Assembly: GCA_947487175.1 (NCBI GenBank)
Contig: CANKVM010000019.1
Location: forward strand, 1 to 37,091
DNA from: Flavobacteriales bacterium
GTDB taxonomy: Bacteria; Bacteroidota; Bacteroidia; NS11-12g; UBA955
Length of the DNA: 37,091 bases
Reading direction: 5' to 3'
The position numbers and the translations under genes are program-made. This document shows, piece by piece, positions 2,466 to 31,983 of the stretch; position 1 is the first letter of the stretch; each line of letters starts with the position of its first letter. The notes below the pieces were generated by a model. It ran no database searches, was not told the origin of the DNA, and saw nothing but the letters and a program-made list of their open reading frames with translations.

Positions 2466-5135
2466 GTGACAAAAACTGTTATACATCCTTATCTTAGATT
2501 AAGTGGTCTCGAACCATTTACATTAACTCCTGACATTAACTTTGTGAATATTGGTGAAAGAACCAATGTTACTGGAAGTAAAAAGTTTGCCAAACTTATT
2601 CTAAATGGCGACTATAATGCAGGGTTAGATATTGCGCGTCAACAAGTTGAAAATGGCGCTCAAATTATTGATATAAACATGGATGAAGGAATGTTAGATG
2701 GCGCTCAGGCCATGACAACATTCGTGAATTTAATTGCCTCTGAGCCAGATATATCTCGTGTACCTATCATGATAGATAGCAGTAAATGGGATGTGATTGT
2801 GGCGGGACTTAAGTGTTTGCAAGGGAAAGGTATTGTAAACTCAATATCCCTCAAAGACGGAGAAGAGGCCTTCTTGAAAAAAGCGTCTCTCGTGAAACGC
2901 TATGGTGCCGCAGTTGTGGTAATGGCCTTTGATGAAACTGGACAAGCCGATTCTTTTGAAAGAAAAATTGCTGTGTGCAAACGCTGTTATGATTTGTTGG
3001 TTGGTAAAGCAAACTTCAATCCCAACGACATCATTTTCGATCCAAATATATTAACCGTTGCAACCGGTATTGACGAACATAACAATTATGCCGTTGACTT
3101 TATCAATGCCACCCGTTGGATTAAGCAAAATCTTCCTGGGGCAAAAGTAAGTGGTGGTATTTCTAATATTTCTTTTTCTTTCAGAGGCAATGACCCTGTA
3201 AGAGAAGCCATGCACTCCGCTTTCCTTTACCATGCCATCCAAGCAGGATTGGATATGGGAATAGTAAACGCGGGAATGATTGAGGTTTACGAAGAAATTC
3301 CAAAAGACCTCCTTACCCATGTTGAAGACGTATTGTTAAATCGCAGAGACGATGCGACAGAACGACTAGTGACATTTGCAGAAACTGTAAAAGGTAAAAA
3401 AGTTGAAAAGATTGAAGAGCAAGAATGGAGAGGATTCACTGTTGAAGAACGCTTAAAACATAGCCTTGTAAGAGGAATTACTGAATTTATTGACCTAGAT
3501 ACCCAAGAAGCATTAGACAAACTTGATGATCCTTTGGGGGTTATTGAGGGACCTTTGATGGCTGGAATGAACTATGTGGGAGATCTTTTTGGCGCAGGTA
3601 AAATGTTTTTACCACAAGTGGTAAAATCTGCCCGTGTAATGAAAAAATCAGTTGCCTATTTGCAACCGTTTTTGGAAGCACAAAAATTAAACAATCCCAA
3701 CGCACGCGCACAAGGTAAAATCTTGTTGGCAACTGTAAAAGGTGATGTTCACGATATTGGAAAGAATATTGTAGGGGTTGTATTGGCCTGTAACAATTAC
3801 GATATTGAAGACATGGGTGTAATGGTTCCTGCCGATAAAATATTGGCGCGTGCCAAAGAATGGGGCGCCGACATTATTGGTCTTAGTGGATTAATTACTC
3901 CAAGTTTAGATGAAATGGTACACGTTGCATCTGAAATGCAGCGCTTGGGTATGAAACAGCCATTGCTCATTGGTGGTGCCACAACTTCTCGTGTGCATAC
4001 CGCTGTGAAAATTGCTCCGCAATATCAATACCCAATTATTCACGTTTTGGATGCAAGTCGTTCTGTACCAGTTGCTGGGCAATTGTTAAGCCCAGATACG
4101 TATCATATTTTCTCGGAAAAGCTTCGTCAAGAATATACTGAGTTGGCTGAATCGCATGCCAAACGCCAATTAAACAAAGACATTATTCCTTATGCCAATG
4201 CTTTGGCAAACCAAATGCCACATAACGGTATTGTTGCAAAACCAAAAAATGTTGGTTTCTTTCAATTGAAAGACATTGATTTAAAGGCTTTGAGGGAAAC
4301 AATTGACTGGACACCATTTTTTCAAACTTGGGAACTTGCAGGACGTTATCCAGATATTTTAACCGATGAAGTAGTTGGTGTTGAATCAACCAAACTTTTC
4401 CATGATGCACAGGAAATGTTAAATGATTGGGAAAATACCCAACCTATTTCTTGTGAAGCAACCTATTTTATATTGCCAGTAAAACGCACAAACGACGATG
4501 TTGTGGTTTTGAATGCAGAAGGAACTGAACAAATTAGCCAATTCCATTTCTTGCGCCAACAACGTAAAATGTCAATGGGTGTTCCAAATTTATCACTTGC
4601 CGATTTCCTTTCTCCAATTGAAATTGATTTTATGGGGGGATTTGCGGTTACTGCAGGTTTAAACCTTGACCCAATAGTAAAAGCATTTGAAGCAAATCTT
4701 GACGATTATAATAGCATCATGGCCAAATCATTGGCCGATAGATTGGCTGAGAGCTTGGCTGAATATTTACATGCAAGAGTAAGAACTGAGTTTTGGGGTT
4801 ATGCAACGAATGAAAACCTATCAAACGACGAACTCATTCACGAGAAGTATGTAGGAATTAGACCTGCACCAGGTTATCCTGCTTGTCCAGATCATACTGA
4901 AAAATCGACATTGTTCAACCTTTTTGATTCTGAGTTTAACTTGAATATTTCTCTTACCGAAAGTATGGCGATGATGCCAGCTGCAAGTGTAAGTGGATTC
5001 TATTTTGCCAATGAAAACTCCAAGTATTTTGGATTAGGTAAAATAGGAAAAGATCAGGTTGAAAATTATGCCGAGAGAAAAGGAATGACAGTAAAAGAAA
5101 TTGAGCGTTGGTTGAGCCCCGTTTTGGGATATTAA
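2466..5135 (+). CDS. metH: Cobalamin-dependent methionine synthase lacking the homocysteine domain
   Basis: Transfers methyl groups from methyltetrahydrofolate through cobalamin to homocysteine. The start is GTG at 2466, 6 bases after the E1 stop. The 889 residues comprise a pterin-binding domain ([13 protein letters not shown], 28-40), a B12 cap, the B12-binding domain with GDVHDIG (426-432, His429 the likely lower axial cobalt ligand) and IGGATTSR further on, and the C-terminal reactivation domain with [12 protein letters not shown] (799-810) for S-adenosylmethionine. Full-length MetH is about 1200 residues and begins with a zinc-binding homocysteine methyltransferase module, which is absent. 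In many Bacteroidota that module is a separate gene, which is not in this window. The gene ends directly against the convergent peroxidase gene, with no bases between the stop codons. Confidence 0.95.
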
Positions 5136-6275
5136 TTACTTCTTAAATGGATTGCTGTAGGCCGGGTTTGTAATTAACTTATTGTCGGTCATTGTCATTA
5201 AGTATGCCTTCAGATTTGCCTTTTGTTCTGTAGTTAAATTCAATTGAAATCCACCATGCGAACTAATCAATGTATGGATATTTGGCGAATTAAATTTCAT
5301 TTTATCTGAATAGTGCTCAATAACTTCATCAAGAGTGTTGAATCTGCCGTCATGCATGTAAGGAGCTGTCAAAGCAATGTTCAACAATGAAGGAGCTTTG
5401 AATGTTCCGTATTTTTTAGGATCATTAACAATTCCTCCATAACCCAAATCTGTGAGCACATCATCTAATCCATTATTGGCAAGACCACCCATATTGAAAT
5501 TCTGTTGTTGCACCAATTCTCCTCCATGGCAGTGAAAACAATCTGCTCCTGGTGTAAACTTTGTTACAGGATCGAAATGCACCAAACCATTAAAAACTTG
5601 GGCTCCCCTTAATTCAGACATATTGAATAGTTGAATACTATCACCGGGGAAAAACCTATTAAAGCGAGACCCATTACTTACAATGGTTAACATGAATTGC
5701 TCAATAGCTTTCGACATATCTACAAGGTTTGGTTCGTGCCCAAAAGCTTTGTTGAAATAATCGATATAGCGTGTTGCATTCTTTAATTTCCCTTCTAATT
5801 TTGGCAATGTCATTGCCATTTCATTATGGGCTTGAATGGGCTCAAAAACCAAATCTCGCAAATTATTCGCCCTTCCATCCCAAAAGAAATGCTTGCTGTA
5901 TGCCATGTTATACAAGGGTGGTGCATTGCGTTTTGTTTTTAATCCAAACGCTCCTGGAGAAAATGCTACAGGATCACTAAAGGCAAATTCTTGCTTATGA
6001 CAAGATGCACAGCTAATGCTGCTATCGTAAGATAAAATAGGATCGTAAAACAGCATCCTTCCCAAATAGACACCTTCAATAGTAAAAGGGTTATCAGATG
6101 GCAATGAAGGCATTCCCAATTCCGCTGGAAATATTGAAAATGGGTCTATTTTTGTGGGGATATATGTACCTTTAGAATTGTATTTTGCATTATCATCTTC
6201 CTTTTTGCATGAAGCAAAAAACAAGACAACAGCAAATAAAGATGTACATAAGATTTTTAATCTAACCCGCTTCAT
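5136..6275 (-). CDS. MbnH-like di-heme cytochrome c peroxidase family lipoprotein
   Basis: MauG/cytochrome c peroxidase family di-heme protein of 379 residues, exported as a lipoprotein (hydrophobic segment about 6-20, lipobox FASC with Cys23). There are two c-heme sites, CASCH at 89-93 and CFHCH at 246-250. YMHDGRF near the C-terminus is typical of the family. It is the last gene of an operon, 16 bases after an MbnP-like gene. In methanotrophs the MbnH/MbnP pair works together: MbnH oxidises a tryptophan of MbnP to kynurenine, creating a copper site. That makes MbnH a better guess than plain peroxide detoxification, but the assignment rests on context. Generic cytochrome c peroxidase is the alternative. 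Confidence 0.85.
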   Translation of the reverse strand: MKRVRLKILCTSLFAVVLFFASCKKEDDNAKYNSKGTYIPTKIDPFSIFPAELGMPSLPSDNPFTIEGVYLGRMLFYDPILSYDSSISCASCHKQEFAFSDPVAFSPGAFGLKTKRNAPPLYNMAYSKHFFWDGRANNLRDLVFEPIQAHNEMAMTLPKLEGKLKNATRYIDYFNKAFGHEPNLVDMSKAIEQFMLTIVSNGSRFNRFFPGDSIQLFNMSELRGAQVFNGLVHFDPVTKFTPGADCFHCHGGELVQQQNFNMGGLANNGLDDVLTDLGYGGIVNDPKKYGTFKAPSLLNIALTAPYMHDGRFNTLDEVIEHYSDKMKFNSPNIHTLISSHGGFQLNLTTEQKANLKAYLMTMTDNKLITNPAYSNPFKK

Positions 6276-6291
6276 GACCTTGATAAATAAT

Positions 6292-7074
6292 TTATTGAAC
6301 TTTGGTAATTTTGTATACGTTCTTAGCGTTTTCCAAAATAGCCTTCATTAGAATAATCTCGGCAGCGCTTTCGGAATGACTCACAGCAGTATTTTTTAAT
6401 ACAATTGGATTTGGAGATTCAAACATTTTTTCAACGGCACATTCAATGGTTGCAGTTTTAACAGTTTTATCAATTGTATAATTGAATGGCAAATTGAACA
6501 TGGTTTTCATCTGATCAGTTGCAGCATGGAAACTAAATCCATTGGTTGAAGAAGTAACAGAATCTTTGGCGTAATTTCCATCTAAAGCTTGGAAAATATA
6601 CCCACCAGACCAACCCCAATGCAATCCAGTTGTAAAAGCATTTAACGGGTGATTTGCAGGCCATTTGTTAGGATCACCATGGTTAATTAAAGAATCTAAA
6701 CCCAATAAAAAAGATATTGCTTTATAATTTCCTTCAGGAATATTCAAATATTTAAATGTAGTGCGTCCATCTGTAAAATTTACCCATTGATAACCATCCC
6801 CAAGTTGCACCGTGTCGCCATTTTCTTTAACCAATGCCAAATGAGAAACCAAAATCGACCAATTGGTTACCGAAAATAATTCACCACCAAATTTACCATG
6901 CATTTTTGTACTACTCGCCAAATTATTACCATTTATCAAACCAACAAAGTTCAGAACCACGCCATTTTTTGGGGTGGTATCAACTACTGGTGTTTTTTCA
7001 GTTTCGCAAGACACCATAAAAGTGCCAATTGCAATTACCGAAAGGAACAAAACCGATTTTAATACTTTAACCAT
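6292..7074 (-). CDS. MbnP-like lipoprotein (candidate copper-binding partner of the di-heme protein)
   Basis: 260-residue predicted lipoprotein (signal peptide about 1-22, lipobox MVSC, Cys23). The fold-defining segments resemble the MbnP family: an early beta strand (GVVLNFVGLING, 38-49), a SHLALV strand (77-82), an IPEGNYKAISF strand (112-122), and a tryptophan-rich LHWGWSGGYIF (151-161) after NHPLNAF. MbnP proteins bind copper after an MbnH-type di-heme enzyme converts a tryptophan to kynurenine, and such an enzyme is encoded immediately downstream. Its ATG lies inside the last codons of the M1 peptidase gene (16-base overlap), which suggests translational coupling. I did not align it to a reference, so which Trp would be modified is unknown. 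Confidence 0.78.
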   Translation of the reverse strand: MVKVLKSVLFLSVIAIGTFMVSCETEKTPVVDTTPKNGVVLNFVGLINGNNLASSTKMHGKFGGELFSVTNWSILVSHLALVKENGDTVQLGDGYQWVNFTDGRTTFKYLNIPEGNYKAISFLLGLDSLINHGDPNKWPANHPLNAFTTGLHWGWSGGYIFQALDGNYAKDSVTSSTNGFSFHAATDQMKTMFNLPFNYTIDKTVKTATIECAVEKMFESPNPIVLKNTAVSHSESAAEIILMKAILENAKNVYKITKVQ

Positions 7075-8981
7075 TTCTTCGAATATACTAAATTACCTGC
7101 ATAAATCCTAATGTTGTAGGTGCCTGTTGACCATTTTGAGGTGCTTAAATCAACAAATTTCTGCCCTTGATTTCCATAATCAACACTAAAGATATCTTGT
7201 CCTAAACTATTAAATACTTGAATTTTTGTCAAGTTCGAATTCCTGCAAAACACCGATGCTATATCCGTTCCAGGGTTAGGTGTAATTACAATTTCTTCAG
7301 GTTGAACAAGGTCTACATTTATACCCCCAACACTGGCTTTAGCAAGTACTGTCACATTTGGGTCAAATATTGCAGTATCGGCTGAAAATGGCAATTCAAC
7401 TTCATAATTCTCCTTCAAATTTTGAGGTTCCCAAACAAACAATTGGCTTTCCATTTTATTCTTAAACAAAATAGGAACTTTCACATACCAAATAGGAACC
7501 ATCATATTCGAAGGCGTTTGCTCCACCGAAACCGAAACCTTACTTCCCCGCTGTTTCCAATTGATTTTTAAATAAGGGAATCCTTCACCATAAAACCATC
7601 TCTGAAAATATACCGCCAAGTTCATTCCAGAAGCCTGTTCCATGTAATTTTTAAGCCCAATCGTATTCCCAAAACCATAAGCGTTTGCACCGCTTAAATA
7701 GTTCCTACATCCTGCAAAAAAGGCACTATCGCCGATGGTTTTTCTCAATTGATGCAATACCCAAGCACCTTTGTTATACGTTAATCTGCCATTGAAAAGA
7801 ACATTGACTTTTGATGTATCTGCAGGACAAACTGCCCCGTTTGGATCGCCTGTTATGTCATTTCTCATGCCACGCAATCTATCTTTTGCCGACTCAGGTC
7901 CCTTCAAATACTCAAACGCCAAACAAGTTAAATAGGTTGCGAATCCCTCATTAAGCCACAAATCTTGCCAGGTACCGCATGTAACCATGTCGCCAAACCA
8001 TTGGTGGGCCAATTCGTGGGCCATTAAATCAAAACTAAAATTCACCATGAAACTCATGGTTTGGTGTTCCATTCCACCACCCCAAGTAAACTGAGCATGA
8101 CCATACTTTTCCTTAACAAATGGATATCGTACAAACAAGCTGTCGAATAATCTCAGCATGGGCAATACCTGTTGAATTTCTTTATACGCCGATGCCGTAA
8201 ACTGTGGGAAAACATAATTCAAAACAGGTAATGAATCTGTTCTTCCAACCAAATGCGCATACTGGGTAAACTCGTCGTAGTTTGTTACAACCATTGCAAC
8301 CAAATAATTCACAATTGGATATCTATGTTTCCAATGGTAAATATGATTGGTATCCCCTTCCTGTATAGTTTCAACCAATAAACCATTCGAGCCTGCTTTT
8401 AAACTTTTATCGGTGTGAACATAAATGTCTATCGAATCAATTTTATCATGCAAAGTTTGTTTGCATGGCCACCACGACAAAGCGCCATAAGGCTCACTTA
8501 AGGTATGAATTACAGGTCCGGTTTTATGATTGTCGTATATGAACGCACCAAACCCGTTGTTGTTTGCTGGATATCCCTCATAATCAACTTCAAAAGAATC
8601 TTGTTCATTGGATAGCCAACCACCTGCTTTTTTAACATAAACAGCGTCGCCATCCCGGCTGTATGACATATTTGTTCCATGATAACTAATTGAATTGATT
8701 TTGAGCCCCGAAATCATATCAAACCCAAGCGAATCTTCATTGTCAACAACCCTAAATTGAAACAAAACCTTTCCTTTCAAATAGGCATTCTTTATTGGAT
8801 TTAAATACCAATGACAACGGTGATAATTAATTTCAAACCCATGATGGATAGTTGATATACCACGTTTTTGAATGCGATTGATAATTCTGTTTTTTTCCGC
8901 ACATATCAAGTCCTCATTTACTTGAGAGAGTAAATTTCCAAATTGCAGAAAACACAAAATCGCAATAATTTTCATTCGCAT
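7059..8981 (-). CDS. Secreted M1-family metallopeptidase with T9SS sorting domain
   Basis: Zinc aminopeptidase of the M1 family, probably secreted or surface attached. Numbered from an upstream ATG at 9011, the zinc motif HELAH is at 332-336, the third ligand Glu355 follows with the canonical 18-residue spacing (NEGFATY), and the substrate-binding motif GGMEH is at 312-316. I prefer ATG 8981 as the start: it puts the signal peptide (MRMKIIAILCFLQFG) at the N-terminus and sits 5 bases after a -7-like TACTTTG. The last 75 or so residues (VITPNPGTD, then IQVFNSLGQ, then STGTYNIRIY) form a type A C-terminal sorting domain, so export should use the type IX system. It heads an operon with the MbnP-like and MbnH-like genes. 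Confidence 0.92.
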   Translation of the reverse strand: MRMKIIAILCFLQFGNLLSQVNEDLICAEKNRIINRIQKRGISTIHHGFEINYHRCHWYLNPIKNAYLKGKVLFQFRVVDNEDSLGFDMISGLKINSISYHGTNMSYSRDGDAVYVKKAGGWLSNEQDSFEVDYEGYPANNNGFGAFIYDNHKTGPVIHTLSEPYGALSWWPCKQTLHDKIDSIDIYVHTDKSLKAGSNGLLVETIQEGDTNHIYHWKHRYPIVNYLVAMVVTNYDEFTQYAHLVGRTDSLPVLNYVFPQFTASAYKEIQQVLPMLRLFDSLFVRYPFVKEKYGHAQFTWGGGMEHQTMSFMVNFSFDLMAHELAHQWFGDMVTCGTWQDLWLNEGFATYLTCLAFEYLKGPESAKDRLRGMRNDITGDPNGAVCPADTSKVNVLFNGRLTYNKGAWVLHQLRKTIGDSAFFAGCRNYLSGANAYGFGNTIGLKNYMEQASGMNLAVYFQRWFYGEGFPYLKINWKQRGSKVSVSVEQTPSNMMVPIWYVKVPILFKNKMESQLFVWEPQNLKENYEVELPFSADTAIFDPNVTVLAKASVGGINVDLVQPEEIVITPNPGTDIASVFCRNSNLTKIQVFNSLGQDIFSVDYGNQGQKFVDLSTSKWSTGTYNIRIYAGNLVYSKKWLKY

Positions 8982-8983
8982 AG

Positions 8984-9047
8984 TTACAAAGTACGTAAAT
9001 TTTACGGACACATTTCAATGCGCCAATAAAAAGCGCTTACTTTGTAA
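8984..9047. promoter_or_regulatory. Symmetric divergent promoter region with 10-base inverted repeat
   Basis: TTACAAAGTA (8984-8993) and TACTTTGTAA (9038-9047) are exact reverse complements 44 bases apart. Each arm carries a -7-like TACTTTG pointing at its own gene: 5 bases from ATG 8981 (minus) and 4 bases from GTG 9049 (plus). The plus copy read as TTACTTTG differs from TAnnTTTG at one position. The symmetry could mean two similar promoters or a shared regulator site. Confidence 0.45.
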
Positions 9048-9048
9048 G

Positions 9049-9993
9049 GTGAAATATAAATGGTTGCCCGTTTTCTTAATTATTTTGTTAGGTTGTATTT
9101 GGGGTAGCTCATTTATCATGATCAAGAGAGGACTAGAAGCATTTAGCCCAATTCAAGTAGCAGGTTTGCGTTTGTCAATGGCTGGCGCATTTTTACTACC
9201 TTGGTTCTTGAAATACAGTGTTTTTAAACCTTATCACAAACCATTTATCAATGAACATTTACACCCCGATCAACATTCAAAAGTGTTGGTAGTTCAACCA
9301 AAAGATTACTTTTTCTTGTTTGTAAGTGGTGTAATTGGAAATGCAATTCCTGCCTATCTTTTTGCAATGGCGGGACAAAGAATTCCATCAGGATTAAGTG
9401 GTATTTTAAATGCATTTACGCCAATGTTTACGCTACTTTTGGGTATTTGGTTTTTCAAAGACAAACTCACAAAAAATGGCATTTGGGGCGTTGTTGCTGG
9501 TTTGGTTGGTGCATTTTTTCTATTTGGGCCTAGCCTTTTTAAGGGCGGATTTAAAATCGACCCAATTGGCGCATGTTTGCCATTAATGGCTGCACTTATG
9601 TATGGCTATAACATTAACATTATCAAGCATAAATTAAGTCATTTGCCCTCTATGGTCAAAACAGCCTATCCCTTTGTATTTATTGCGGTAATCTATATTT
9701 TTATCATTTGGAAATCAGACATTGCCAGTGTTTGGGTAAACAAACCAGAAATCGTTTGGTCGAGTTTTAAATATTTACTCATTTTGGGTTTTGTAGGAAG
9801 CGCTGTGAGCATGGTGCTCTTTAATTATCTCATATTGCATACTTCGGCATTGGTTGCCTCAACCAATACTTTTGTAATACCGGTAACCGCAGTTATGTGG
9901 GGATTGATGGACCAAGAAGTATTGTCGTGGAACATTTTTATTGGACTTGGATTTCTTTTGGGAGCAGTCTATTTGATCATGCGAAAAGAATAA
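9049..9993 (+). CDS. EamA/DMT-family transporter
   Basis: Inner-membrane protein of 314 residues with about ten hydrophobic segments, in the two-repeat arrangement of the drug/metabolite transporter superfamily. The first repeat opens with LGCIWGSSFIMIKRGLEAFSP, typical of EamA proteins. A hydrophilic insert of about 25 residues rich in His and Pro (roughly 60-85) lies between the second and third membrane segments. The start is GTG at 9049, the only good candidate before the first membrane helix, just 4 bases after a -7-like TACTTTG. Substrate is not predictable; relatives export amino acids or other metabolites. The ALDH7 gene follows after 55 bases with its own -7 box. Confidence 0.85.
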   Translation: MKYKWLPVFLIILLGCIWGSSFIMIKRGLEAFSPIQVAGLRLSMAGAFLLPWFLKYSVFKPYHKPFINEHLHPDQHSKVLVVQPKDYFFLFVSGVIGNAIPAYLFAMAGQRIPSGLSGILNAFTPMFTLLLGIWFFKDKLTKNGIWGVVAGLVGAFFLFGPSLFKGGFKIDPIGACLPLMAALMYGYNINIIKHKLSHLPSMVKTAYPFVFIAVIYIFIIWKSDIASVWVNKPEIVWSSFKYLLILGFVGSAVSMVLFNYLILHTSALVASTNTFVIPVTAVMWGLMDQEVLSWNIFIGLGFLLGAVYLIMRKE

Positions 9994-10033
9994 TAAATAA
10001 TTCTTTCATGATAAATTGTTAAAAGTGACAACC

Positions 10034-10041
10034 TATTTTTG
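10034..10041 (+). promoter_or_regulatory. -7 promoter box (TAnnTTTG)
   Basis: TATTTTTG ends 7 bases before the ATG at 10049. It argues against the longer reading frame beginning at 10016, whose start would lie upstream of the promoter. Confidence 0.6.
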
Positions 10042-10048
10042 TGTTGCC

Positions 10049-11584
10049 ATGACAAAACAATCATTTCTAACGCAATTACAAATTAACGAAACCATTCCGA
10101 GTGCAAGTACCGGATTGAATCATATAACCTGCAAGGATACCTCCACGTTTGTTGATTTTAGTCCCGTAGATAATCAAATCATTACGAATGTAACGGAATG
10201 TGATTTAGATACTTACAATGCGGTTGTTGCAAAAGCACTTGAGGCTCAAATAGTTTGGCGCCAGTGGCCGGCACCTAAGCGTGGAGAGGTTGTGCGTCAA
10301 ATTGGTGATGCACTTAGAAAAAATAAGGATGATTTGGGTTCGTTGGTGAGCTATGAAATGGGCAAAAGCCTTCAAGAAGGCTTGGGCGAGGTTCAAGAAA
10401 TGATTGACATTTGCGACTTTGCCGTGGGTATGAGTCGTCAGTTATATGGCTTAACCATGCACAGTGAACGTCCTAACCACAGAATGTACGAACAATGGCA
10501 TCCTGTGGGAATTGTGGGAATTATTTCTGCGTTCAACTTCCCTGTGGCAGTTTGGAGTTGGAACGCCATGATTGCGGCCATTTGTGGAAATGCTTCAATT
10601 TGGAAACCTAGCGAAAAAACACCTGCAACTGCGCAGGCAGTGCAGCATATTTTGGCTGATGTTTTAAAAGAAAATCAAATTCCTGAGGGATTATTTTGTG
10701 TTATCCAAGGTGGAAGTAAAGTTGGCGAATGGTTAACCAACGATCGTAATATTCCGTTGATTAGTGCTACGGGAAGCACCAGAATGGGCAAAAAAGTGGG
10801 TGAAATTGTTGGCGCAAGATTGGGTAAAACCATATTGGAATTGGGCGGTAACAATGCCATTATAGTTTCTGATCAAGCCAATTTAGATATTACCTTAATT
10901 GCGGTGTTGTTTGGCGCAGTGGGCACTGCAGGTCAGCGTTGTACCTCAACAAGAAGATTGATTATTCACGAATCTATATATGAGTCTTTCAAAGAAAAAT
11001 TGGTGAAAGCATATGGTCAATTGCGAATTGGAAATCCATTAGATTCCAATAATCACGTTGGTCCATTGATTGACAAAGATGCTGTATCAAACTATCTTAA
11101 TGCAATTGAGAAATTGCAAAATGAAGGTGGCAGCGTGTTATGTGGCAATAAAGTTTTTGAGGGACATGGGTTTGAGTCTGGATGTTACGTTGCTCCAACC
11201 ATTTGTGAGGGTCAACCTAATTATCAAATTATTCAGGACGAAACATTTGCCCCTATTTTATATTTGTTACAATATTCAACGCTAGAAGAAGCCATTGCCA
11301 TTCAAAACGGAGTAAAACAAGGTTTATCAAGTGCCATTTTCACAGACAACCTTCAAGAAGCAGAAACCTTTTTATCGGCAGTTGGATCAGACTGTGGAAT
11401 TGCCAATGTAAACATTGGTACATCGGGTGCTGAAATTGGCGGAGCTTTTGGTGGCGAAAAAGAAACAGGTGGCGGAAGAGAAAGCGGTTCCGATTCATGG
11501 AAAGCCTACATGCGACGTCAAACCAATACAATCAACTATGGAAAAACCTTGCCATTGGCACAGGGTATTAAATTTGATTTGTAA
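10049..11584 (+). CDS. ALDH7-type aldehyde dehydrogenase (probable L-aminoadipate-semialdehyde dehydrogenase)
   Basis: NAD(P)-dependent aldehyde dehydrogenase of 511 residues from ATG 10049. The active-site residues are present: Asn163 in [14 protein letters not shown], Lys186 in WKPSEK, Glu264 in LELGGNN, and nucleophile Cys298 in [12 protein letters not shown]. The [20 protein letters not shown] and [10 protein letters not shown] forms are characteristic of the ALDH7 (antiquitin) branch, which oxidises 2-aminoadipate 6-semialdehyde in lysine catabolism. No other lysine-degradation gene is adjacent, so the substrate is an inference from family. Transcription probably ends at the hairpin at 11605-11638. 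Confidence 0.9.
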
Positions 11585-11604
11585 ATCTTATCAAAAGTAT
11601 AAAC

Positions 11605-11638
11605 AAAAAATCCCTCAATAACTTTGAGGGATTTTTTT
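11605..11638. terminator. Bidirectional Rho-independent terminator built from an inverted TTGAGGGA pair
   Basis: AAAAAATCCCTCAA (11605-11618), a 5-base loop, and TTGAGGGATTTTTT (11624-11637) pair over 14 bases and are followed by T. The A-tract on one side and T-tract on the other make it work in both directions, and it lies between the convergent ALDH and bamA genes. The core of the stem is the octamer TCCCTCAA/TTGAGGGA that recurs across the window. Confidence 0.92.
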
Positions 11639-11658
11639 ATGATTAAAAATTATTCCTG

Positions 11659-14214
11659 TTAAAACTGTTGTCCAATAAAGAAGTGGACTTGAGTTGGTTG
11701 ACCGCTCTTAGGTACATCTCTATAATCGAAGCCCCAAGCGTAATCTAATCCAATAAGTCCAAACATTGGCATAAACAAACGAATACCAACACCGGCAGAA
11801 CGCTTCAATTGGAAAGGATTGTATTTTTGTATGCTAGACCATGCATCTCCTGCTTCAATGAAAGCCAAGGCATACACAGTTGCAGTTTGACCCGTTGTAA
11901 TTGCTTGACGCAACTCCATGGTAAATTTGTTAAAAATTGGAGCACCCGCAGAACCACCCATGGCAGTTTGTGAAATGGTGTAATTGTCGTACCCACGCTG
12001 TGAAATAATTTCAGTTGCTGCAATGTTGAAACCAAAAATACCTGCGCCACCTACTTGGAATCTTTCAAAGAAAGTAGGTCCAATTTTAGGATTGTAATAA
12101 CCTAAAAATCCGAATCTCGTTTTGCACATCAATACCAATTTCTTGTAAATTGGGGTATACCACTCCGCGTCAAACTTGAACTTATAAAACTCTGCCCATT
12201 TGTATTTTTCAGTCAATGCCATTTTGGTATAATCTTTATCATTAAAGAAACTTAATGGAGGAGTTGCTTGTATGGATGTGGTAAAATTACTTCCTGAAGT
12301 TGGATAAATTGGATCACTAACCGAGTTTCTAGATAATGTAATTTGCAATGATGGGTTATAAGAAATCCCCTGAAAACCAGTTGGAAAACCATAGTAAGCA
12401 CCATCCATATTTTGCATTCTATATTGTTGGAAACTCAACAAATATTGAATATTAAAGAAATCATCTGGCCATTTCAATCTTTTACCCAAACTCACATTCA
12501 TACCCGTATTGAAAAATGCTTTATGCAATGGATCAGATGTTTGACGATAATCGAAGCTATTTACTGTGTGGAATATAGAAACCGATAATGAATTTGGTTT
12601 ATGTCCACCCAACCAAGGTTCGGTAAATGAGAATGTATAACCTTGATAATTGGCACCGTTACTTTGCGCTCTTAAGGATAATTTTTGTCCATCACCAACT
12701 GGAACTGGGTTCCACAACTTAGGATGAAACAATTTTCTTGCGCTAAAGTTATTTAAAACAACACCGGCAGTTCCTATTAAAGTTGGTGTGGTACTATAAC
12801 CGTTTCCACCCCAACCACCAGACAATTCAATTTGATCTGAAGGTTTTTCTACCAATTTATAGGCAATATCAACCGTTCCATCAGAAGCATTTGGTTTTGG
12901 ATCTACTTTCATTTGTTCTGGATCGAATAAACCTATTGCAGCCAAATCTCGCATGGTACGTTGGATATCGGTTCTAGAGAAAGTATTTCCTGGTTTGGTT
13001 CGAAGCTCTCTTAAAATTACCCTGTCGGTAGTTTTTGTATTGCCAGACCATGTAACATGTCCAATTACCGCTTGAGGTCCCTCAGAAATACGAACTTCCA
13101 TGTCAATACTATCATTTGAAACACCCACTTCAACAGGCATCATGTTAAAAAACAAGTAACCTGCATCCATGTATAAACTTTGTATATCAAATCCACCTGG
13201 ATTGCTAAACAAACGCTCGTCTAGGAGGGATTGGTTGAAAATATCACCCCTTTTAATTCCAAGAAGGGTATCTAATAAAGTGGTTCTATACTTTAAGTTC
13301 CCTTTCCAAGAAATGTTTCTAAAGCGGTATAAATTTCCCTCAATTAATTTTATGTGAACAATAATTCTATCGCTGCGAAACATAGAAATGCTATCTGATA
13401 AAATTCTTGCGTCTCTATAACCTTTTGCATGATACTGTTGAATTAGGTTTGACTTTTCTTCTTCAAATTGCGACTCGGTAAATTTAGAACTTCCAAAAAT
13501 GTTCCATTTGAGGTACGAACGTTTAATTTTCTTGATAGAAGCGCGTAAATCTTTATCAGCTATGGCAAAATTTCCCTCAAAATCAAAATCATAAACCTTT
13601 ACTTTTGGTCCTTTGGTAATTTCAAAATCAAAGTTTTCAAAACCTAACATTGGCTTTCCATCTTTATTCTTTGCGGGCAAACGAACAACTTTTACACTTA
13701 TGTTGTAAAAACCTTTATCTTGATAGTACTTTTCGATTTTCTGAACTGATCGATTCACCAAATTAGGAGTAATATACATTCCCCTTTTTAAACCGATTTC
13801 ATCTTTCAAAGTTTTTGACTGGGCATTTGATATATTGTTAAATCGATGTCCATTCAAACGGGGCTGTTCTTGCACAATAAACTGCACAACCACATTGTTA
13901 CCGCCAACAATTTGAAAATACACTTGCACATCGCTAAAATAATCTTGACGCCAAATATTCTCAATTGCCTTTGAAATATCATTTCCAGGAACTTTAATTT
14001 CCTGACCAATTGACAAACCTGAGTATAAAATGACCATGGCTTTTTGAACTTGCTTGCCATTTACCTCAGCAACTTGAATATTTTTTATTTTATAAACTGC
14101 TGGCTCAATGAAATTATACTCAATAGAAGGCGCACTTTGGAAGGCACTATCATTTATTTGAGAATAACCCAAACCTGCAATACTTAAACACAATATTAAA
14201 AAGAATATTCTCAT
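11659..14214 (-). CDS. bamA: Outer membrane protein assembly factor BamA
   Basis: Central component of the outer-membrane beta-barrel insertion machine. 851 residues: signal peptide (about 1-19, ending YSQ), a series of periplasmic POTRA repeats over roughly residues 35-460 (for example GLKRGMYITPNLVNRSVQK and GRVILRELRTKPGNTFSRTDIQ-like stretches), and a C-terminal Omp85 barrel ending in Phe (FFIGQQF), as expected of a barrel substrate signal. The start is ATG 14214, 3 bases after the uppS stop, so the two are co-transcribed. In Porphyromonas and many relatives skp/ompH chaperone genes follow bamA; here the terminator and a convergent gene follow instead. Confidence 0.93.
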   Translation of the reverse strand: MRIFFLILCLSIAGLGYSQINDSAFQSAPSIEYNFIEPAVYKIKNIQVAEVNGKQVQKAMVILYSGLSIGQEIKVPGNDISKAIENIWRQDYFSDVQVYFQIVGGNNVVVQFIVQEQPRLNGHRFNNISNAQSKTLKDEIGLKRGMYITPNLVNRSVQKIEKYYQDKGFYNISVKVVRLPAKNKDGKPMLGFENFDFEITKGPKVKVYDFDFEGNFAIADKDLRASIKKIKRSYLKWNIFGSSKFTESQFEEEKSNLIQQYHAKGYRDARILSDSISMFRSDRIIVHIKLIEGNLYRFRNISWKGNLKYRTTLLDTLLGIKRGDIFNQSLLDERLFSNPGGFDIQSLYMDAGYLFFNMMPVEVGVSNDSIDMEVRISEGPQAVIGHVTWSGNTKTTDRVILRELRTKPGNTFSRTDIQRTMRDLAAIGLFDPEQMKVDPKPNASDGTVDIAYKLVEKPSDQIELSGGWGGNGYSTTPTLIGTAGVVLNNFSARKLFHPKLWNPVPVGDGQKLSLRAQSNGANYQGYTFSFTEPWLGGHKPNSLSVSIFHTVNSFDYRQTSDPLHKAFFNTGMNVSLGKRLKWPDDFFNIQYLLSFQQYRMQNMDGAYYGFPTGFQGISYNPSLQITLSRNSVSDPIYPTSGSNFTTSIQATPPLSFFNDKDYTKMALTEKYKWAEFYKFKFDAEWYTPIYKKLVLMCKTRFGFLGYYNPKIGPTFFERFQVGGAGIFGFNIAATEIISQRGYDNYTISQTAMGGSAGAPIFNKFTMELRQAITTGQTATVYALAFIEAGDAWSSIQKYNPFQLKRSAGVGIRLFMPMFGLIGLDYAWGFDYRDVPKSGQPTQVHFFIGQQF

Positions 14215-14217
14215 GAA

Positions 14218-14970
14218 TTATTTTGTAATTTGCTCAGTAGTTTTTCCAAATCGTCTTTCACGACTTTGATAATCTAAAATAGCGTCTAAAAAGTGATTTT
14301 TTGTAAAATCAGGCCAAAGCACATCTGTAAAATATACTTCAGAATATGCAATTTCCCAAAGTAAAAAGTTACTTATGCGTTGTTCGCCACTGGTACGAAT
14401 CAATAAATCTGGATCAGGATATTGTGCTGTATTTAAAGCAGCGCTCACAATAGTGTCATCTACCTCATTTGGCTGAATTTTCCCATCTTTTATGTCGTTG
14501 CCTATTTTTTTCATTGCTTCAATAATATCCCAACGACCACTATAGCTCAGAGCCAAAATCAAAGTAGTTTTTGCATTGTCTTTGGTTTTCTCTTCCGCCT
14601 TTTTTAATTGGTCTTTACAGTTAACTGGAAGCTCAGCAATATTGCCCAAGGTTTTCAATCGAACTCCATTCTTCATGAGAGCAGGTAGTTCTTTTTCAAT
14701 TGAATCTACCAACAATTGCATGAGTGCATTGACTTCTATGGCAGGTCTATTCCAATTCTCGGTAGAAAAAGCATACATGGTTACATACTCAATACCCACT
14801 TCTGCTGCAAATTCGATCGCTCCTCGCACTGCATCCACACCCCTTCTATGCCCAAAAATTCTCATTAAGCCTTGCTTTTTGGCCCATCGACCGTTGCCAT
14901 CCATAATAATAGCAACATGTTTAGGGATTCTATTGGCTTGAATTTGAGGGTAATTTGTAATCTGTTCCAC
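14218..14970 (-). CDS. uppS: Undecaprenyl diphosphate synthase (cis-prenyltransferase)
   Basis: Condenses isopentenyl diphosphate onto farnesyl diphosphate to make the C55 carrier lipid for peptidoglycan and other surface polymers. The 250 residues have the hallmark HVAIIMDGNGRWA (18-30, catalytic/metal Asp24), GHRRG (40-44), and the C-terminal RTSGEQRISNFLLW substrate/metal site followed by the YSEVYFTDVLWPDF segment. The length is usual for the family. It sits between PorG-like genes and bamA, the arrangement known from T9SS-bearing Bacteroidota. Confidence 0.95.
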   Translation of the reverse strand: MEQITNYPQIQANRIPKHVAIIMDGNGRWAKKQGLMRIFGHRRGVDAVRGAIEFAAEVGIEYVTMYAFSTENWNRPAIEVNALMQLLVDSIEKELPALMKNGVRLKTLGNIAELPVNCKDQLKKAEEKTKDNAKTTLILALSYSGRWDIIEAMKKIGNDIKDGKIQPNEVDDTIVSAALNTAQYPDPDLLIRTSGEQRISNFLLWEIAYSEVYFTDVLWPDFTKNHFLDAILDYQSRERRFGKTTEQITK

Positions 14971-14981
14971 TTAAATTGAAA

Positions 14982-15827
14982 TTATCTGCAAATAAAGGGT
15001 GTAAATCGGTAAGATAGGTTAAATCCATAGAAATAATACCAGTCTTTTAGATGAACGTCACCACGAAAGGTTCCCGCATTAAAAGCTTTACCTCCATTTA
15101 ACGTTTGTGCTTGGCTATACTGCGCATTCCCAATACCCTTATCATTTTTCATTTTACTATAATCTGGATAAACATCGTCAACATCGTCTAGAAAGTCAAT
15201 GAATGTTTTACGCCATATTGCCTCTACACCAAAAACCCAGGCCCCTTTATGTCTTCTCACAGAACTCATGGTTTTATAACCTATGCCAATTGGCACAGCC
15301 AATTGCAATGGGCTGTAAGTGGCAGATCGGTTTTCAGTATTCAAAACGCGTAAATCAATGTCGCTATTTTCTAGTCTTGAAGGATTAAAATAAAAGGCAG
15401 ACAAACCAATTACTGCATATGGGGTTTCGCTTCCATTTCTAATGTTGGTTCCAAATGAATGAAAATCTAACGAAAGCATACTTGCAAACTCATAAATATC
15501 AGATTTGAAATTTAAATTTTGTACTTGATAATTAATATTCCCTTCTGTAGTACCTGAAATTTTCAAATAGCTCAGTTGGTTCCTTAGTGAAAAATAGCTG
15601 CTCAAATTATAACGTTGATAGACTCCATATGACGGATGAAACTGTTTTAAGTTTTGTCCTTGAGATAAATCACCATAATAATTACTCACGCCATAAACTA
15701 CACCAAACTCATTTCTGCCAGAAAAATATTTTTGTCCGTAAACATGAAAATGCGCCACAAAAGCAGCGCACATTATCAAAAATCTTTTGGTAACAGGATT
15801 AAAATTGAAAACAAGTTTGCTTTCCAC
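14982..15827 (-). CDS. PorG/DUF6089-like outer membrane protein (second copy)
   Basis: 281-residue predicted outer-membrane beta-barrel or surface protein. A signal-like stretch (KRFLIMCAAFVAHFHVYGQ, about 14-32) precedes RNEFGVVYGVSNYYGDLS, which closely parallels the upstream neighbour, as do a QISG-like segment and the near-C-terminal FIDFLDDVDDVYPDY. Proteins of this type lie directly before uppS-bamA in Bacteroidota; PorG of Porphyromonas, a T9SS outer-membrane component, has that position. The start overlaps the upstream gene by 29 bases. ATG 15773 is possible but would remove the basic residues of the signal peptide. The protein ends in ICR rather than a terminal aromatic. Confidence 0.72.
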   Translation of the reverse strand: MESKLVFNFNPVTKRFLIMCAAFVAHFHVYGQKYFSGRNEFGVVYGVSNYYGDLSQGQNLKQFHPSYGVYQRYNLSSYFSLRNQLSYLKISGTTEGNINYQVQNLNFKSDIYEFASMLSLDFHSFGTNIRNGSETPYAVIGLSAFYFNPSRLENSDIDLRVLNTENRSATYSPLQLAVPIGIGYKTMSSVRRHKGAWVFGVEAIWRKTFIDFLDDVDDVYPDYSKMKNDKGIGNAQYSQAQTLNGGKAFNAGTFRGDVHLKDWYYFYGFNLSYRFTPFICR

Positions 15828-16743
15828 CCACTATCTTCCTTGTCAATGTAAAGTTAAAAAACATATACCAATCTTTATTTTGAGAGGCATCACCACGAGG
15901 AGCACCCAACGTTTCGTTGGTTCCTACATCGTTTATTCCCAAAGATGGATCTTGTAATTCAGGAGTTCTATCTGCAAAAGCTGAACTTAAGCCAGTATTT
16001 GCACCGGTTGTAATTTGAGCATCAACATAAGTTAAACTCACATCATCTAGGTAATCTGTAAATGTTTTACGCAAACCAAATTCAACACCCCAAGCCCAAA
16101 TTTCACTAAATTGTTTTTTGTACCCAACTCCAATTGGAATTGATACTTGAGTCAATGAATATCTTTTGCGGCTGTTATATTTGGTTGTTTCTTGACCTTC
16201 AGTGCTCAATGGTTGTAACTCAATCCATTTGCCATCGTACTTTGACAAATCTCCGTAATCTGCAGGGTCGTACAATCCAGGAATATATTTGAATTGCGCC
16301 ATTGGGTTAAATTTGAAAACACCAATTCCAGCAAACAAGAAAGGAGTACCAGGATTTGTTCTTTGTGTTTCGCCAAAACCAAAAATATTCCATTCTAAAG
16401 TTCCACTGAACTCCATGATATTGCTTTTAAAACTCAAATTTCTTTTGCGATATGCTGCATCGCTGCTGTAGTTTTGATCGTTTCCACTTATTTGACCAAA
16501 AACCGCATTACCACGCAAGGTTAAAAAGTCAGAATAATTAAAACGACAAATAATACCACCCATTGGATGGGATTCGTTCAATGCAACCAATGGGGTCAAG
16601 TCACCCATATAGTTAGAAGCACCTAGGGTAATTCCAACCTCAATAGGTTTGCCCCTAAAACGTTTCGGCTGGGCGTTCAACTTAAATGCGAACATCAAAG
16701 CGAACAATAATATGATCCCAGATTTAAAGGTTTTTGTCATCAT
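15799..16743 (-). CDS. PorG/DUF6089-like outer membrane protein (first copy)
   Basis: 314 residues from ATG 16743 (a second ATG follows at 16740). The open frame extends to 16824, but that extension has no signal peptide and lies upstream of a -7 box at 16753-16760. The N-terminus is a clear signal peptide (FKSGIILLFALMFAFKLNAQ), followed by EVGITLGASNYMGDLTPL, a many-stranded Tyr/Asn-rich body and a C-terminal Phe (FQF). TDYLDDVSLTYVD matches FLDDVDDVYPDY of the next gene, so the two are tandem paralogues. A role in type IX secretion by analogy with PorG is plausible but rests on similarity recalled from memory and on the uppS-bamA context. Confidence 0.74.
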   Translation of the reverse strand: MMTKTFKSGIILLFALMFAFKLNAQPKRFRGKPIEVGITLGASNYMGDLTPLVALNESHPMGGIICRFNYSDFLTLRGNAVFGQISGNDQNYSSDAAYRKRNLSFKSNIMEFSGTLEWNIFGFGETQRTNPGTPFLFAGIGVFKFNPMAQFKYIPGLYDPADYGDLSKYDGKWIELQPLSTEGQETTKYNSRKRYSLTQVSIPIGVGYKKQFSEIWAWGVEFGLRKTFTDYLDDVSLTYVDAQITTGANTGLSSAFADRTPELQDPSLGINDVGTNETLGAPRGDASQNKDWYMFFNFTLTRKIVGGKQTCFQF

Positions 16744-16752
16744 GGTATTAGG

Positions 16753-16760
16753 CAAATTTA
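16753..16760 (-). promoter_or_regulatory. -7 promoter box (TAnnTTTG)
   Basis: On the minus strand this reads TAAATTTG and ends 9 bases before ATG 16743. It probably drives the four-gene run of PorG-like 1, PorG-like 2, uppS and bamA. Confidence 0.55.
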
Positions 16761-16825
16761 ACGAATCGGTATTATTTTTCCTAACTTTATGCACAATAAC
16801 AATGTAAAAGTAAAAAAAAGGCAAT

Positions 16826-17617
16826 TTAACCCCTTACTAAATAATACATTCCCATAACCAAATAGTTACGTAAAAAAGGAATATTTGCAATGATATTCAG
16901 TTGTTTTCGCGGTTTAATTCCAAACTTATATTCATAAATTGGATTGAATAAATAACTCGATTTTTTTACCACAAAAAATTCTGAAACTTTACAAATTCGC
17001 TCAAATCTTTCAATAGAAATACCTGTATCACGAATTTCTTCCATGGTTTTTATTCCGCTTTCATTCACACCAAACATTTTCATAACTGACGGATATAACC
17101 CACCAGGGAGCAAATGATAATATGGCATTTTGCTAGCCAATTTACCTGGCAGCACTTGCTGGTGGCCACCATAAGGCATTTGCCAAGGTGGAAACGCAAA
17201 AAATACCACTCCCCCTTTATTCAAAAAACGATGTAATTGGGGCATAAACTTCTCTTGATTTGGAATATGCTCTATCACATCCTTCAAAATAATTAAATCA
17301 AATTTGGTACCCAAATCCACCTCAGGATTTACATCGTAAATATCTTTGTTTAGGAATTGAATTTTGCCATTTTCCAGTTCATCTTTCATGAATTCTCTGG
17401 CAAACTCCAATCGTGATTCTTCCAATTCAATGCCAGTACATTTGTATCCTAAATCTGTGAAAGCCTTCAAAACACCGGCTTCACCACAACCAATTTCCAA
17501 AACGCGCATTTCGCTAGGAAACTGATATTGCTCTTTAATAAATGGTATAATATGTCCCACCGTTACCTTGTGGGTCATGTCAAAATAATAACGCTTATCG
17601 CCGTGAAATTCGTACAT
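16826..17617 (-). CDS. Class I SAM-dependent methyltransferase
   Basis: 263 residues with a Rossmann-type methyltransferase domain: motif I VLEIGCGEAGVLKAF (39-53), an acidic strand end at TGIELEESR, and motif IV-like DLIILKDVIEHIPN. The second half (about 150-263) is rich in aromatic and basic residues, with a short hydrophobic C-terminus (IPFLRNYLVMGMYYLV). The acceptor is unknown. It starts 2 bases after the 3-hydroxyanthranilate dioxygenase stop, so the two share a transcript, but I know of no reason to place it in the kynurenine pathway. Confidence 0.85.
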   Translation of the reverse strand: MYEFHGDKRYYFDMTHKVTVGHIIPFIKEQYQFPSEMRVLEIGCGEAGVLKAFTDLGYKCTGIELEESRLEFAREFMKDELENGKIQFLNKDIYDVNPEVDLGTKFDLIILKDVIEHIPNQEKFMPQLHRFLNKGGVVFFAFPPWQMPYGGHQQVLPGKLASKMPYYHLLPGGLYPSVMKMFGVNESGIKTMEEIRDTGISIERFERICKVSEFFVVKKSSYLFNPIYEYKFGIKPRKQLNIIANIPFLRNYLVMGMYYLVRG

Positions 17618-17619
17618 AA

Positions 17620-18138
17620 TTAAGGTTTTTGCAAAACCTCTCCGCAGTTTTTACAAGTTCTCAAATGTTCGGAATCATAAAATTCATTGAAATGATTTAA
17701 GAAATCTGTTTCAATATTTTTTAGTTCAAAGTAGGCCTCATGCAATTTGTGATTACAGCTATCGCAAAACCACAACAGTCCATCTGTAAATCCTTTGCCT
17801 ACTCTCACCCTTTCAATAACCAAACCCACGCTTCCTGCTGTTCTTCCTGGAGAATGAGGCACTTTTGCTGGCAACAAATACATATCACCGGCCTTCATTT
17901 TCACGTCTTCCCTCATGCCATCTACTTGAATTTTGATGGTAATTTCACCTTCCAATTGATAAAACAATTCTTCGGTTTCATTATAGTGGTAATCTTTTCT
18001 AGCATTCGGGCCACCAACAACCATTACAATGTAATCTGATCCTTCCGGATAAATATTTTTATTGGCAACAGGTGGTTTCAAAAGATGCTTATTCTCTGAA
18101 ATCCACTCTTGTAAATTAAAAGGTTTTCTAATATTCAT
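17620..18138 (-). CDS. 3-Hydroxyanthranilate 3,4-dioxygenase
   Basis: Opens the ring of 3-hydroxyanthranilate to give 2-amino-3-carboxymuconate semialdehyde, on the route from tryptophan/kynurenine to quinolinate and NAD or to catabolism. The 172-residue cupin has the iron ligands His51, Glu57 and His95 and substrate-binding Arg47 and Arg99, at the same positions as in the characterised Cupriavidus enzyme. The bacterial C-terminal rubredoxin-like site is complete: CDSC at 125-128 and CKNC at 162-165. Other kynurenine-pathway genes (kynurenine monooxygenase, kynureninase, quinolinate phosphoribosyltransferase) are not in the window. A -7 box lies at 18164-18171. Confidence 0.95.
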   Translation of the reverse strand: MNIRKPFNLQEWISENKHLLKPPVANKNIYPEGSDYIVMVVGGPNARKDYHYNETEELFYQLEGEITIKIQVDGMREDVKMKAGDMYLLPAKVPHSPGRTAGSVGLVIERVRVGKGFTDGLLWFCDSCNHKLHEAYFELKNIETDFLNHFNEFYDSEHLRTCKNCGEVLQKP

Positions 18139-18163
18139 GACAACATTTTGGTTGGCTTTAATA

Positions 18164-18171
18164 CAAAAATA
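18164..18171 (-). promoter_or_regulatory. -7 promoter box (TAnnTTTG)
   Basis: The minus strand reads TATTTTTG, 25 bases before ATG 18138 of the dioxygenase gene. This is the longest leader among the promoters recognised here. It lies in the 106-base divergent intergenic region shared with purF. Confidence 0.5.
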
Positions 18172-18225
18172 ATCAATTTTATTGAATCTCTTTTTTTAGT
18201 ACTCACATTTTGAAAGTTTATATCG

Positions 18226-18233
18226 TAAATTTG
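18226..18233 (+). promoter_or_regulatory. -7 promoter box (TAnnTTTG)
   Basis: TAAATTTG ends 11 bases before the purF ATG at 18245. The rest of the intergenic region back to 18139 is AT-rich; I see no riboswitch or operator in it. Confidence 0.55.
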
Positions 18234-18244
18234 CACCATTATAC

Positions 18245-20137: not shown

Positions 20138-20156
20138 TATTTTCAAACAATTTCAA

Positions 20157-20164
20157 TAAATTTG
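20157..20164 (+). promoter_or_regulatory. -7 promoter box (TAnnTTTG)
   Basis: TAAATTTG ends 14 bases before ATG 20179. It lies between purF and frr and supports the short frr start over an in-frame extension that would run back into purF. Confidence 0.55.
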
Positions 20165-20178
20165 CATTAATTCGAATT

Positions 20179-20739
20179 ATGAGCACAGTTAAAGAAGTTA
20201 TCAGTAAACTACAAGAACAACTCGACAAAAACCTTTCACATACTTCTGTGGAATTCACAAGAATACGCGCCGGTAAAGCATCTCCAGATATGCTAGATGG
20301 TGTAATGGTTGAATATTATGGCGCTGCCACACCATTGTCGCAAGTTGCCAATGTAAATACACCAGATGCACGCACAATTAGCATTCAACCTTGGGAAAAA
20401 ACATTGATTCGCCCAATTGAAACAGCAATCATCAATGCAAACCTCGGTTTTGCACCTCAAAACGATGGTGAGTTTATTCGTATAAGCATTCCGCCAGTAA
20501 CTGAAGAACGTCGTAAAGAATTGGTGAAACGTGCAAAATCTGAATGTGAAAATTCTAAAGTAGGAATTAGAAATTTACGTAAAGATGCCAACGAAAGAAT
20601 CAAGAAATTGAAAAGCGATGGTACCAGCGAAGACGAGTGTGCAGCGGGTGAAGAAAGCGTTCAAAGAATAATTGATAATTATATCAAAAAAACTGACGAT
20701 TTATTCACTAACAAAGAGAAAGAAATTATGACGGTATAA
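20179..20739 (+). CDS. frr: Ribosome recycling factor
   Basis: Splits post-termination ribosomes together with EF-G. From ATG 20179 the product is 186 residues, the standard family length. The frame is open back to 20038, but that part overlaps purF and has no family match. Recognisable segments are FTRIRAGKASPDMLDG, VNTPDARTISIQPWEK, and PPVTEERRKELVKRAKSECEN in the triple-helix domain. The last 14 bases overlap the end of the convergent purK gene. Confidence 0.96.
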   Translation: MSTVKEVISKLQEQLDKNLSHTSVEFTRIRAGKASPDMLDGVMVEYYGAATPLSQVANVNTPDARTISIQPWEKTLIRPIETAIINANLGFAPQNDGEFIRISIPPVTEERRKELVKRAKSECENSKVGIRNLRKDANERIKKLKSDGTSEDECAAGEESVQRIIDNYIKKTDDLFTNKEKEIMTV

Positions 20740-21874: not shown

Positions 21875-21879
21875 TGTTG

Positions 21880-21887
21880 CAAAGTTA
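21880..21887 (-). promoter_or_regulatory. -7 promoter box (TAnnTTTG)
   Basis: The minus strand reads TAACTTTG, 5 bases before the purK ATG at 21874. Confidence 0.6.
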
Positions 21888-21966
21888 ATTTAGATTGTCG
21901 CAATATTTTTGAGATTCATCTAAATCTCATCAAAATATCATACAATTTATGTATATTCGAATAAAT

Positions 21967-26797: not shown

Positions 26798-26815
26798 AAG
26801 GCAAATACGCTTTTT

Positions 26816-27592: not shown

Positions 27593-27606
27593 GAATTCAA
27601 TTACTT

Positions 27607-27614
27607 CAAATATA
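27607..27614 (-). promoter_or_regulatory. -7 promoter box (TAnnTTTG)
   Basis: The minus strand reads TATATTTG, 14 bases before ATG 27592 of the DUF4197 gene. The other side of this 91-base divergent region has TAACTTCG (27670-27677), one mismatch from consensus, 6 bases before ATG 27684. Confidence 0.55.
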
Positions 27615-27683
27615 ATGCCTGAACCTCCAAAATCTTTAATAGTTCGATAAGAAGATGTAAAATAATTACTAACTTCGTATAAT

Positions 27684-28400: not shown

Positions 28401-28405
28401 TACCC

Positions 28406-29989: not shown

Positions 29990-30070
29990 TTTTTATAATT
30001 CCCTTCAAATGTCTTATCGAATTTCTCATTCTGCAAATCGAGTTTTCCCCCAAAAGTTCAAACGATTGCG

Positions 30071-30078
30071 TATTTTTG
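30071..30078 (+). promoter_or_regulatory. -7 promoter box (TAnnTTTG)
   Basis: TATTTTTG ends 4 bases before ATG 30083. This is one of the shortest gaps in the window and implies a leaderless or nearly leaderless mRNA. Confidence 0.6.
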
Positions 30079-30082
30079 TGCC

Positions 30083-31090: not shown

Positions 31091-31096
31091 TTTTAA

Positions 31097-31912: not shown

Positions 31913-31915
31913 ATA

Positions 31916-31931: not shown

Positions 31932-31983
31932 AAAAATTTGAAAATTAAAAAGACAATCGTCAAATGATAAAAATATTCGATAA

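Follow-up and report, generated by a model that had tools for sequence, protein, structure and literature searches.

To our knowledge, uptake sequences are known in the Neisseriaceae and the Pasteurellaceae only. Neisseriaceae genomes with DUS dialects hold inverted DUS pairs 'in high numbers', and a CTG core is common to all of the dialects, according to the available portion of PMC3630211. In the accessible text of PMC2397512, DUS are reported to be much better conserved than the sequence around them, and most of those in Neisseria to be intergenic. The Pasteurellaceae USS has intragenic copies in both orientations and an apparently random distribution, as stated in the available part of PMC2346458. 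A literature search on the octamer described here and on uptake words in Bacteroidetes returned nothing on point save PMC7965970, the accessible part of which reports that Riemerella columbina prefers its own DNA and gives only A/T-rich sequences as top words.

The window analysed here (the whole stretch of 37,091 nucleotides) contains 18 copies of the octamer TTGAGGGA, against 1.09 expected, and two of these face each other as the arms of a hairpin between convergent genes (Table 1). Taken overall, the hairpin is probably an ordinary bidirectional terminator whose arms are two facing octamers kept by a clade-wide, DNA-level process, the likeliest being biased DNA uptake. The terminator alone is ordinary, and two claims are kept apart below: that the word is abundant and conserved, and that it is used at transcription ends.

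Table 1. Coordinates of the terminator, its flanking genes and the octamer copies in the window.
Feature	Position	Strand	Basis or detail
Aldehyde dehydrogenase family gene, running into the terminator	10016..11584	+	ORF; PF00171 (Aldedh), E 4.9e-133
Predicted bidirectional intrinsic terminator	11605..11638	.	14-bp stem (11605-11637), 5-nt loop, A and T tracts
Left arm, octamer copy TCCCTCAA	11611-11618	- (TTGAGGGA when read on -)	Sequence
Right arm, octamer copy TTGAGGGA	11624-11631	+	Sequence
BamA-like outer-membrane assembly gene, entering the terminator from the opposite side	11659..14214	-	ORF; PF07244, E 3.7e-40
Other copies of TTGAGGGA (16)	2847..32758	both	2847-, 3544+, 4290+, 11157+, 13336-, 13573-, 21032-, 21458+, 22812-, 23810+, 25296-, 28456-, 28785-, 29860+, 32255-, 32751+

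The stretch 11605-11637 reads AAAAAATCCCTCAA-TAACT-TTGAGGGATTTTTT and is followed by one further T. TAACT forms the loop, a run of six A precedes and a run of seven T comes after. Folded as RNA, the hairpin forms the 14-bp stem on both strands, with energies of -17.7 kcal/mol (plus strand; z = -6.5) and -17.3 kcal/mol (minus strand; z = -5.9), and none of 200 shuffles per strand folded equally well. The site has a hairpin with a GC core and a T tract directly after it, and lies outside coding sequence. It resembles known intrinsic bidirectional terminators in its GC-core stem, its A and T tracts and its position between convergent genes, and differs from them in arm sequence only. By its sequence and predicted fold it is an ordinary Rho-independent terminator, which would end transcription in the cell from both directions. 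A search of 11000-12300 against Rfam gave no family above its gathering score. The gene entering from the right is called BamA-like from its POTRA repeats (PF07244), which occur in four stretches of the ORF. The initial annotation had described a terminator stem built from an inverted octamer pair, made bidirectional by A and T tracts and placed between convergent genes, and the arms, the tracts, the folds on both strands and the flanking ORFs bear this out. It had also called this the only strong terminator. A stricter scan of the window retains this site as its sole terminator outside ORFs; two looser scans together list 40 terminator-like sites (27 against 15.4 in shuffles for the first, 13 against 12.6 for the second), among which this one has the most base pairs (14).

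The octamer is abundant throughout the source genome (G000; 2,417,704 bp in 156 contigs), with 760 copies compared to 35 of the reversed word. In a 420-kb sample of this genome, 132 of 143 copies lie inside ORFs (simple ORF calls, made without a gene finder) and 11 outside, against 8.3 expected. Within ORFs, 59 copies are on the gene strand and 73 on the opposite strand. Spacing is random (CV 1.01). The flanks of 142 sites in the sample are T-rich upstream, and not-G, A and T downstream. The Pasteurellaceae USS likewise prefers an AT-rich flank. Codon use was considered as a source of the word and ruled out by its near-even division between gene strands and its use of every stop-free frame. 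Neighbouring copies in the source genome are slightly more often in opposite orientation (same orientation in 48 of 133, p = 0.002); the corresponding counts in G007 (59 of 130), G011 (39 of 84) and G006 (24 of 60) are not significant.

Comparison between congeners, in the sampled overlap of each pair and by tests that are not independent of one another, points to conservation of the word itself. From G007 to G011 (85% identity, 182 kb) the octamer is intact at 53 of 63 sites, compared to 35% for scrambled words (1827 sites; p = 5e-15). The source genome retains it in G006 (75% identity) at 9 of 23 sites against 13% for scrambled words (p = 0.002), and in G007 at 14 of 18 (p = 0.006). Four further comparisons were not significant: G000 to G011 (13 of 19, p = 0.24), G009 to G007 (7 of 8, p = 0.07), G007 to G006 (2 of 4, p = 0.08) and G006 to G007 (2 of 5, p = 0.11). 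None of nine octamers of the source genome is intact in G013 (scrambled words 9%), where the octamer is weakly enriched.

Enrichment is limited to part of the genus. The octamer is enriched in six of 14 genomes (G000, G004, G006, G007, G009 and G011; 477 to 889 copies, with 558 in G006 and 494 in G004), and G013 is intermediate with 171 copies against 33 of the reversed word. In the 43 genomes of other genera the octamer never exceeds the reversed word by more than a factor of 2.3. In a tree of the protein encoded beside the terminator, the six octamer-rich genomes fall on one side of a branch with support 92/96, a clade that rests on this one protein, with a partial sequence for G004 and with G008 and G012, which gave no match to the neighbouring gene, left out. 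G013 instead carries 462 copies of a variant, TTGGGGGA, against 24 reversed. Ten of the 35 copies in a 260-kb sample of that genome lie opposite the gene strand and five lie outside ORFs; TTGGGGGA was therefore accepted with moderate confidence as the variant word of G013, a possible dialect of the octamer. As a dialect in the source genome (196 copies), the same word was rejected as largely a coding effect, since 26 of 27 copies in ORFs are on the gene strand. Another word, CGGGGGAA, shows a weaker excess in G005 (220 against 60) and G010 (145 against 26), and no dialect is claimed for it.

An uptake role is the most likely one for a word with this pattern, which is abundant, acts at the DNA level, has no preferred orientation, is conserved, is limited to a clade and has a variant in a relative. 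In the mechanism we propose, the approximately 760 copies would be maintained by a DNA-level process confined to one clade of the genus. The likeliest such process would be sequence-biased DNA uptake followed by recombination, which would make the octamer uptake-sequence-like.

The same pattern invites other explanations. Conservation, dispersal, clade specificity and a preference for AT-rich surroundings would also suit recognition of the word by a protein of the clade that organises the chromosome or acts as a regulator. Binding sites for such proteins tend, however, to be oriented, clustered or located upstream of genes, whereas the octamer is randomly spaced, is found overwhelmingly within ORFs and shows no replication-strand bias in G007, so that we consider a protein-binding role unlikely. 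Less likely still is a Chi-like role, in which the octamer would be the site for a RecBCD/AddAB-type nuclease and its pairing in the terminator a coincidence. Like Chi, it is a G-rich octamer, conserved, present in hundreds of copies and located in genes. In other species Chi is found preferentially on the leading strand, but divided by GC skew the octamer shows no such bias: the G-rich strand holds 56 of 114 copies on contig C1 of G007 (56 against 58, compared to 2670 against 1574 for scrambled words made of the same letters), 46 of 78 on contig C1 of G011 (46 against 32) and 79 of 143 in the sample of the source genome (79 against 64). Enrichment in only part of one genus, the variant word in another congener and the T-rich flank preference also argue against a nuclease site.

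The terminator itself has a history within the genus. A like hairpin is present in the source genome and five congeners. The octamer occupies both arms in G000, G007, G009 and G011, with differing loops, while G006 and G004, which are also octamer-rich, keep the core ATCCCTC/GAGGGAT at the same place with different inner pairs. The protein tree described above splits the six genomes into four and two, exactly matching the two stem forms. No such stem was found in approximately the first 120 bases in G013, G001, G003, G010, G005 or G002, and G008 and G012 are absent from the comparison for want of a match to the neighbouring gene. In G002, the stretch following the BamA-like gene is a run of short repeats rich in GGTACC, without a visible terminator. 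The consensus fold of the six hairpins has 14 pairs, of which 12 are invariant and one is changed on both sides in two genomes. Because 12 of the 14 pairs never vary, support from covariation is weak (36 of 500 shuffles scored as high), although the pairing itself is nearly perfect, with 98.8% of alignment cells paired. The conserved terminator core, TCCCTC/GAGGGA, is within two base pairs of the octamer. Among the six octamer-rich genomes, four have inner stem pairs that complete the octamer, and the other two keep the core and differ inside. The need for pairing in the stem and the pressure for the octamer would jointly maintain both arms. Either the octamer stem or the core-only stem may be the older form.

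Inverted octamer pairs are not in excess, since their counts match random expectation at each level examined. In the source genome, two inward pairs with gaps of 0 to 30 were found against 1.85 expected from random placement of 380 copies per strand; there is one outward pair, for which the expectation is equal (1.85), and the reversed-word control gives one inward pair. The initial annotation had looked to further inverted pairs in the genome, and the one other that exists (C10:27409-27441) lies inside a 441-aa ORF in a total at chance level. The six octamer-rich genomes together hold nine inward pairs against approximately 8.9 expected from rounded genome sizes, and exact search found none in the octamer-rich G006 or in the eight other genomes of the genus. 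As the octamer searches were exact, mismatched pairs are visible solely through a search of the source genome with the hexamer core, which gave seven pairs against 8.8 expected and three for the reversed control.

Where the pairs fall is another matter. Five of the nine inward pairs have gaps of 5 to 8 together with A and T tracts and are terminator-shaped: the orthologous site in G000, G007, G009 and G011, and an independent site in G004. The other four have gaps of 17 to 26 and lie within long open frames, three of them at apparently the same gene. All five close pairs (gap of at most 10 nt), from two independent loci, are therefore terminator-shaped, whereas chance favours gene interiors. 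With approximately 3.2 pairs with gaps of 0 to 10 expected by chance in the six genomes, close pairs are not clearly in excess, but their placement stands out. The pair beside the BamA-like gene counts as one event, being orthologous in four genomes. Among the seven hexamer pairs, at least three (the present site, C9:23733 and C98:6783) are placed where convergent genes end and the C10 pair lies in an ORF, this count of context covering four of the seven and leaving C15, C55 and C98:823 outside it. That all five close pairs are terminator-shaped, and that three of seven hexamer pairs are at convergent ends, indicates some attraction of pairs to terminators; it implies that a required hairpin can acquire two copies of the word, though rarely. 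Convergent placement of the close pairs was read in G000 and G004. The G004 site (C342:16589-16612) is an independent, octamer-armed and terminator-shaped site with convergent ORFs on either side, one of which, named by eye, resembles secreted proteins that carry a C-terminal sorting tail.

The octamer is no general component of terminators, nor are terminators its chief location. In the 420-kb sample (of 2.42 Mb), the source genome has 28 strong terminators outside ORFs, 16 of them bidirectional, and the present site alone has octamer or GAGGGA arms. The other 27 have unrelated stems, and in 10 of the 28 GGC or GCC comes after a run of A. One of 32 terminators in G007 (460 kb sampled) and one of 14 in G011 (280 kb) are octamer-armed, each being the orthologue of the present site, and there were none among 15 in the sampled stretches of G006 (240 kb) or 10 in those of G013 (260 kb). 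The exact-pair terminator thus holds two of the 760 octamers of the source genome. The initial annotation had tied the octamer to transcription ends as well as gene interiors and had raised the possibility that terminators generally use other stems; the unrelated stems in this sample, the chance-level pairs and the bare enrichment of the octamer outside ORFs all speak against that tie. The least likely explanation, that the octamer is a Neisseria-like uptake sequence whose inverted pairs regularly serve as terminators, can cite the present pair, the independent G004 site between convergent ORFs, the terminator shape of every close pair and the hexamer pairs C9 and C98:6783 at convergent gene ends, but is largely refuted by the pair counts and is further weakened by the two copies in 760 and by the 27 unrelated stems.

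Biased uptake, our preferred explanation for the abundance of the word, can now be set beside the known systems. Like the DUS, the octamer is a short word with hundreds of copies in both orientations, conserved beyond its surroundings and with variant words in relatives, and here a pair forms a terminator stem between convergent genes. It differs in that its pairs are at chance level, compared to the high numbers given for DUS in the available portion of PMC3630211, and in that its copies are mostly in ORFs, where those of the DUS are mostly intergenic in the accessible text of PMC2397512. Moreover, neither TTGAGGGA nor its complement TCCCTCAA contains CTG or CAG, and the hosts belong to another phylum and have no pilus ATPase over the cut-off. 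The CTG core and the numerous pairs are both absent, so the octamer cannot be classed as a Neisseria DUS. The likeness to Neisseria that had been drawn in the initial annotation holds for the uptake-like behaviour of the word but fails for a general tie to transcription ends. The USS shares with the octamer an abundant core word, intragenic copies in both orientations and an apparently random spread (as described in the available part of PMC2346458). It is unlike the octamer in sequence, and the hosts of the octamer have no pilus ATPase over the cut-off.

Genes for competence are present in the source genome, with matches to ComEC (E = 1.4e-54) and DprA (E = 1.4e-72). ComEC was found in 12 of the 14 genomes, including all six that are octamer-rich, and DprA in 11, including four of the six (the source genome among them). 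The octamer-rich but incomplete G004 and G009 gave no match to DprA. As both genes are also present in congeners without the octamer, neither tracks it. The pilus ATPase family PF00437 was over the cut-off in none of the 14 genomes, with weaker matches below it in seven, making a Neisseria-type ComP reader unlikely.

The sole outward octamer pair of the source genome, TTGAGGGAAGATGAAATTCCCTCAA (C68:3856-3880), spans the first ATG in the dprA frame. The start of dprA can fold as a hairpin in all 11 genomes fetched, including the source genome, with differing arm sequences; the stretches were chosen by eye and give z between -2.2 and -5.8 relative to simple shuffles. G000, G007 and G011 have the octamer as their arms, and in G006 one arm is TTGGGGGA. 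This suggests that dprA, a transformation gene, has a leader hairpin that is conserved and that may have a role in its regulation. Such a leader would repeat the logic of the terminator, in that a hairpin kept for its own reasons appears to have acquired the word in its arms.

We tentatively propose, in a broader form of the uptake hypothesis that is somewhat more open to doubt, that a clade of uncultured Bacteroidota evolved its own uptake sequence (TTGAGGGA, with TTGGGGGA as a variant in a further congener), whose reader is not a type IV pilus, and that the word captured the terminator and dprA leader hairpins. Should the uptake role hold, the octamer would extend uptake sequences beyond the Neisseriaceae and Pasteurellaceae to a lineage without a pilus ATPase over the cut-off, and would point to another type of reader. 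The word and its use in terminators are coupled in Neisseria and uncoupled here, suggesting that paired-word terminators arise as a by-product when the intergenic load of the word is large, and that an uptake-sequence system does not need them.

Other abundant words were seen in the course of the analysis. A distant Bacteroidota locus (JAKOVW010000030.1) contains AACTTGCA 21 times in 18.4 kb against 1.3 expected, which is either a repeat array or another abundant word. Within 60 kb of G007, CTTCTGGAC, GACGGGGAC and similar words each have 13 to 16 copies, which looks like a repeated protein or a tandem array.
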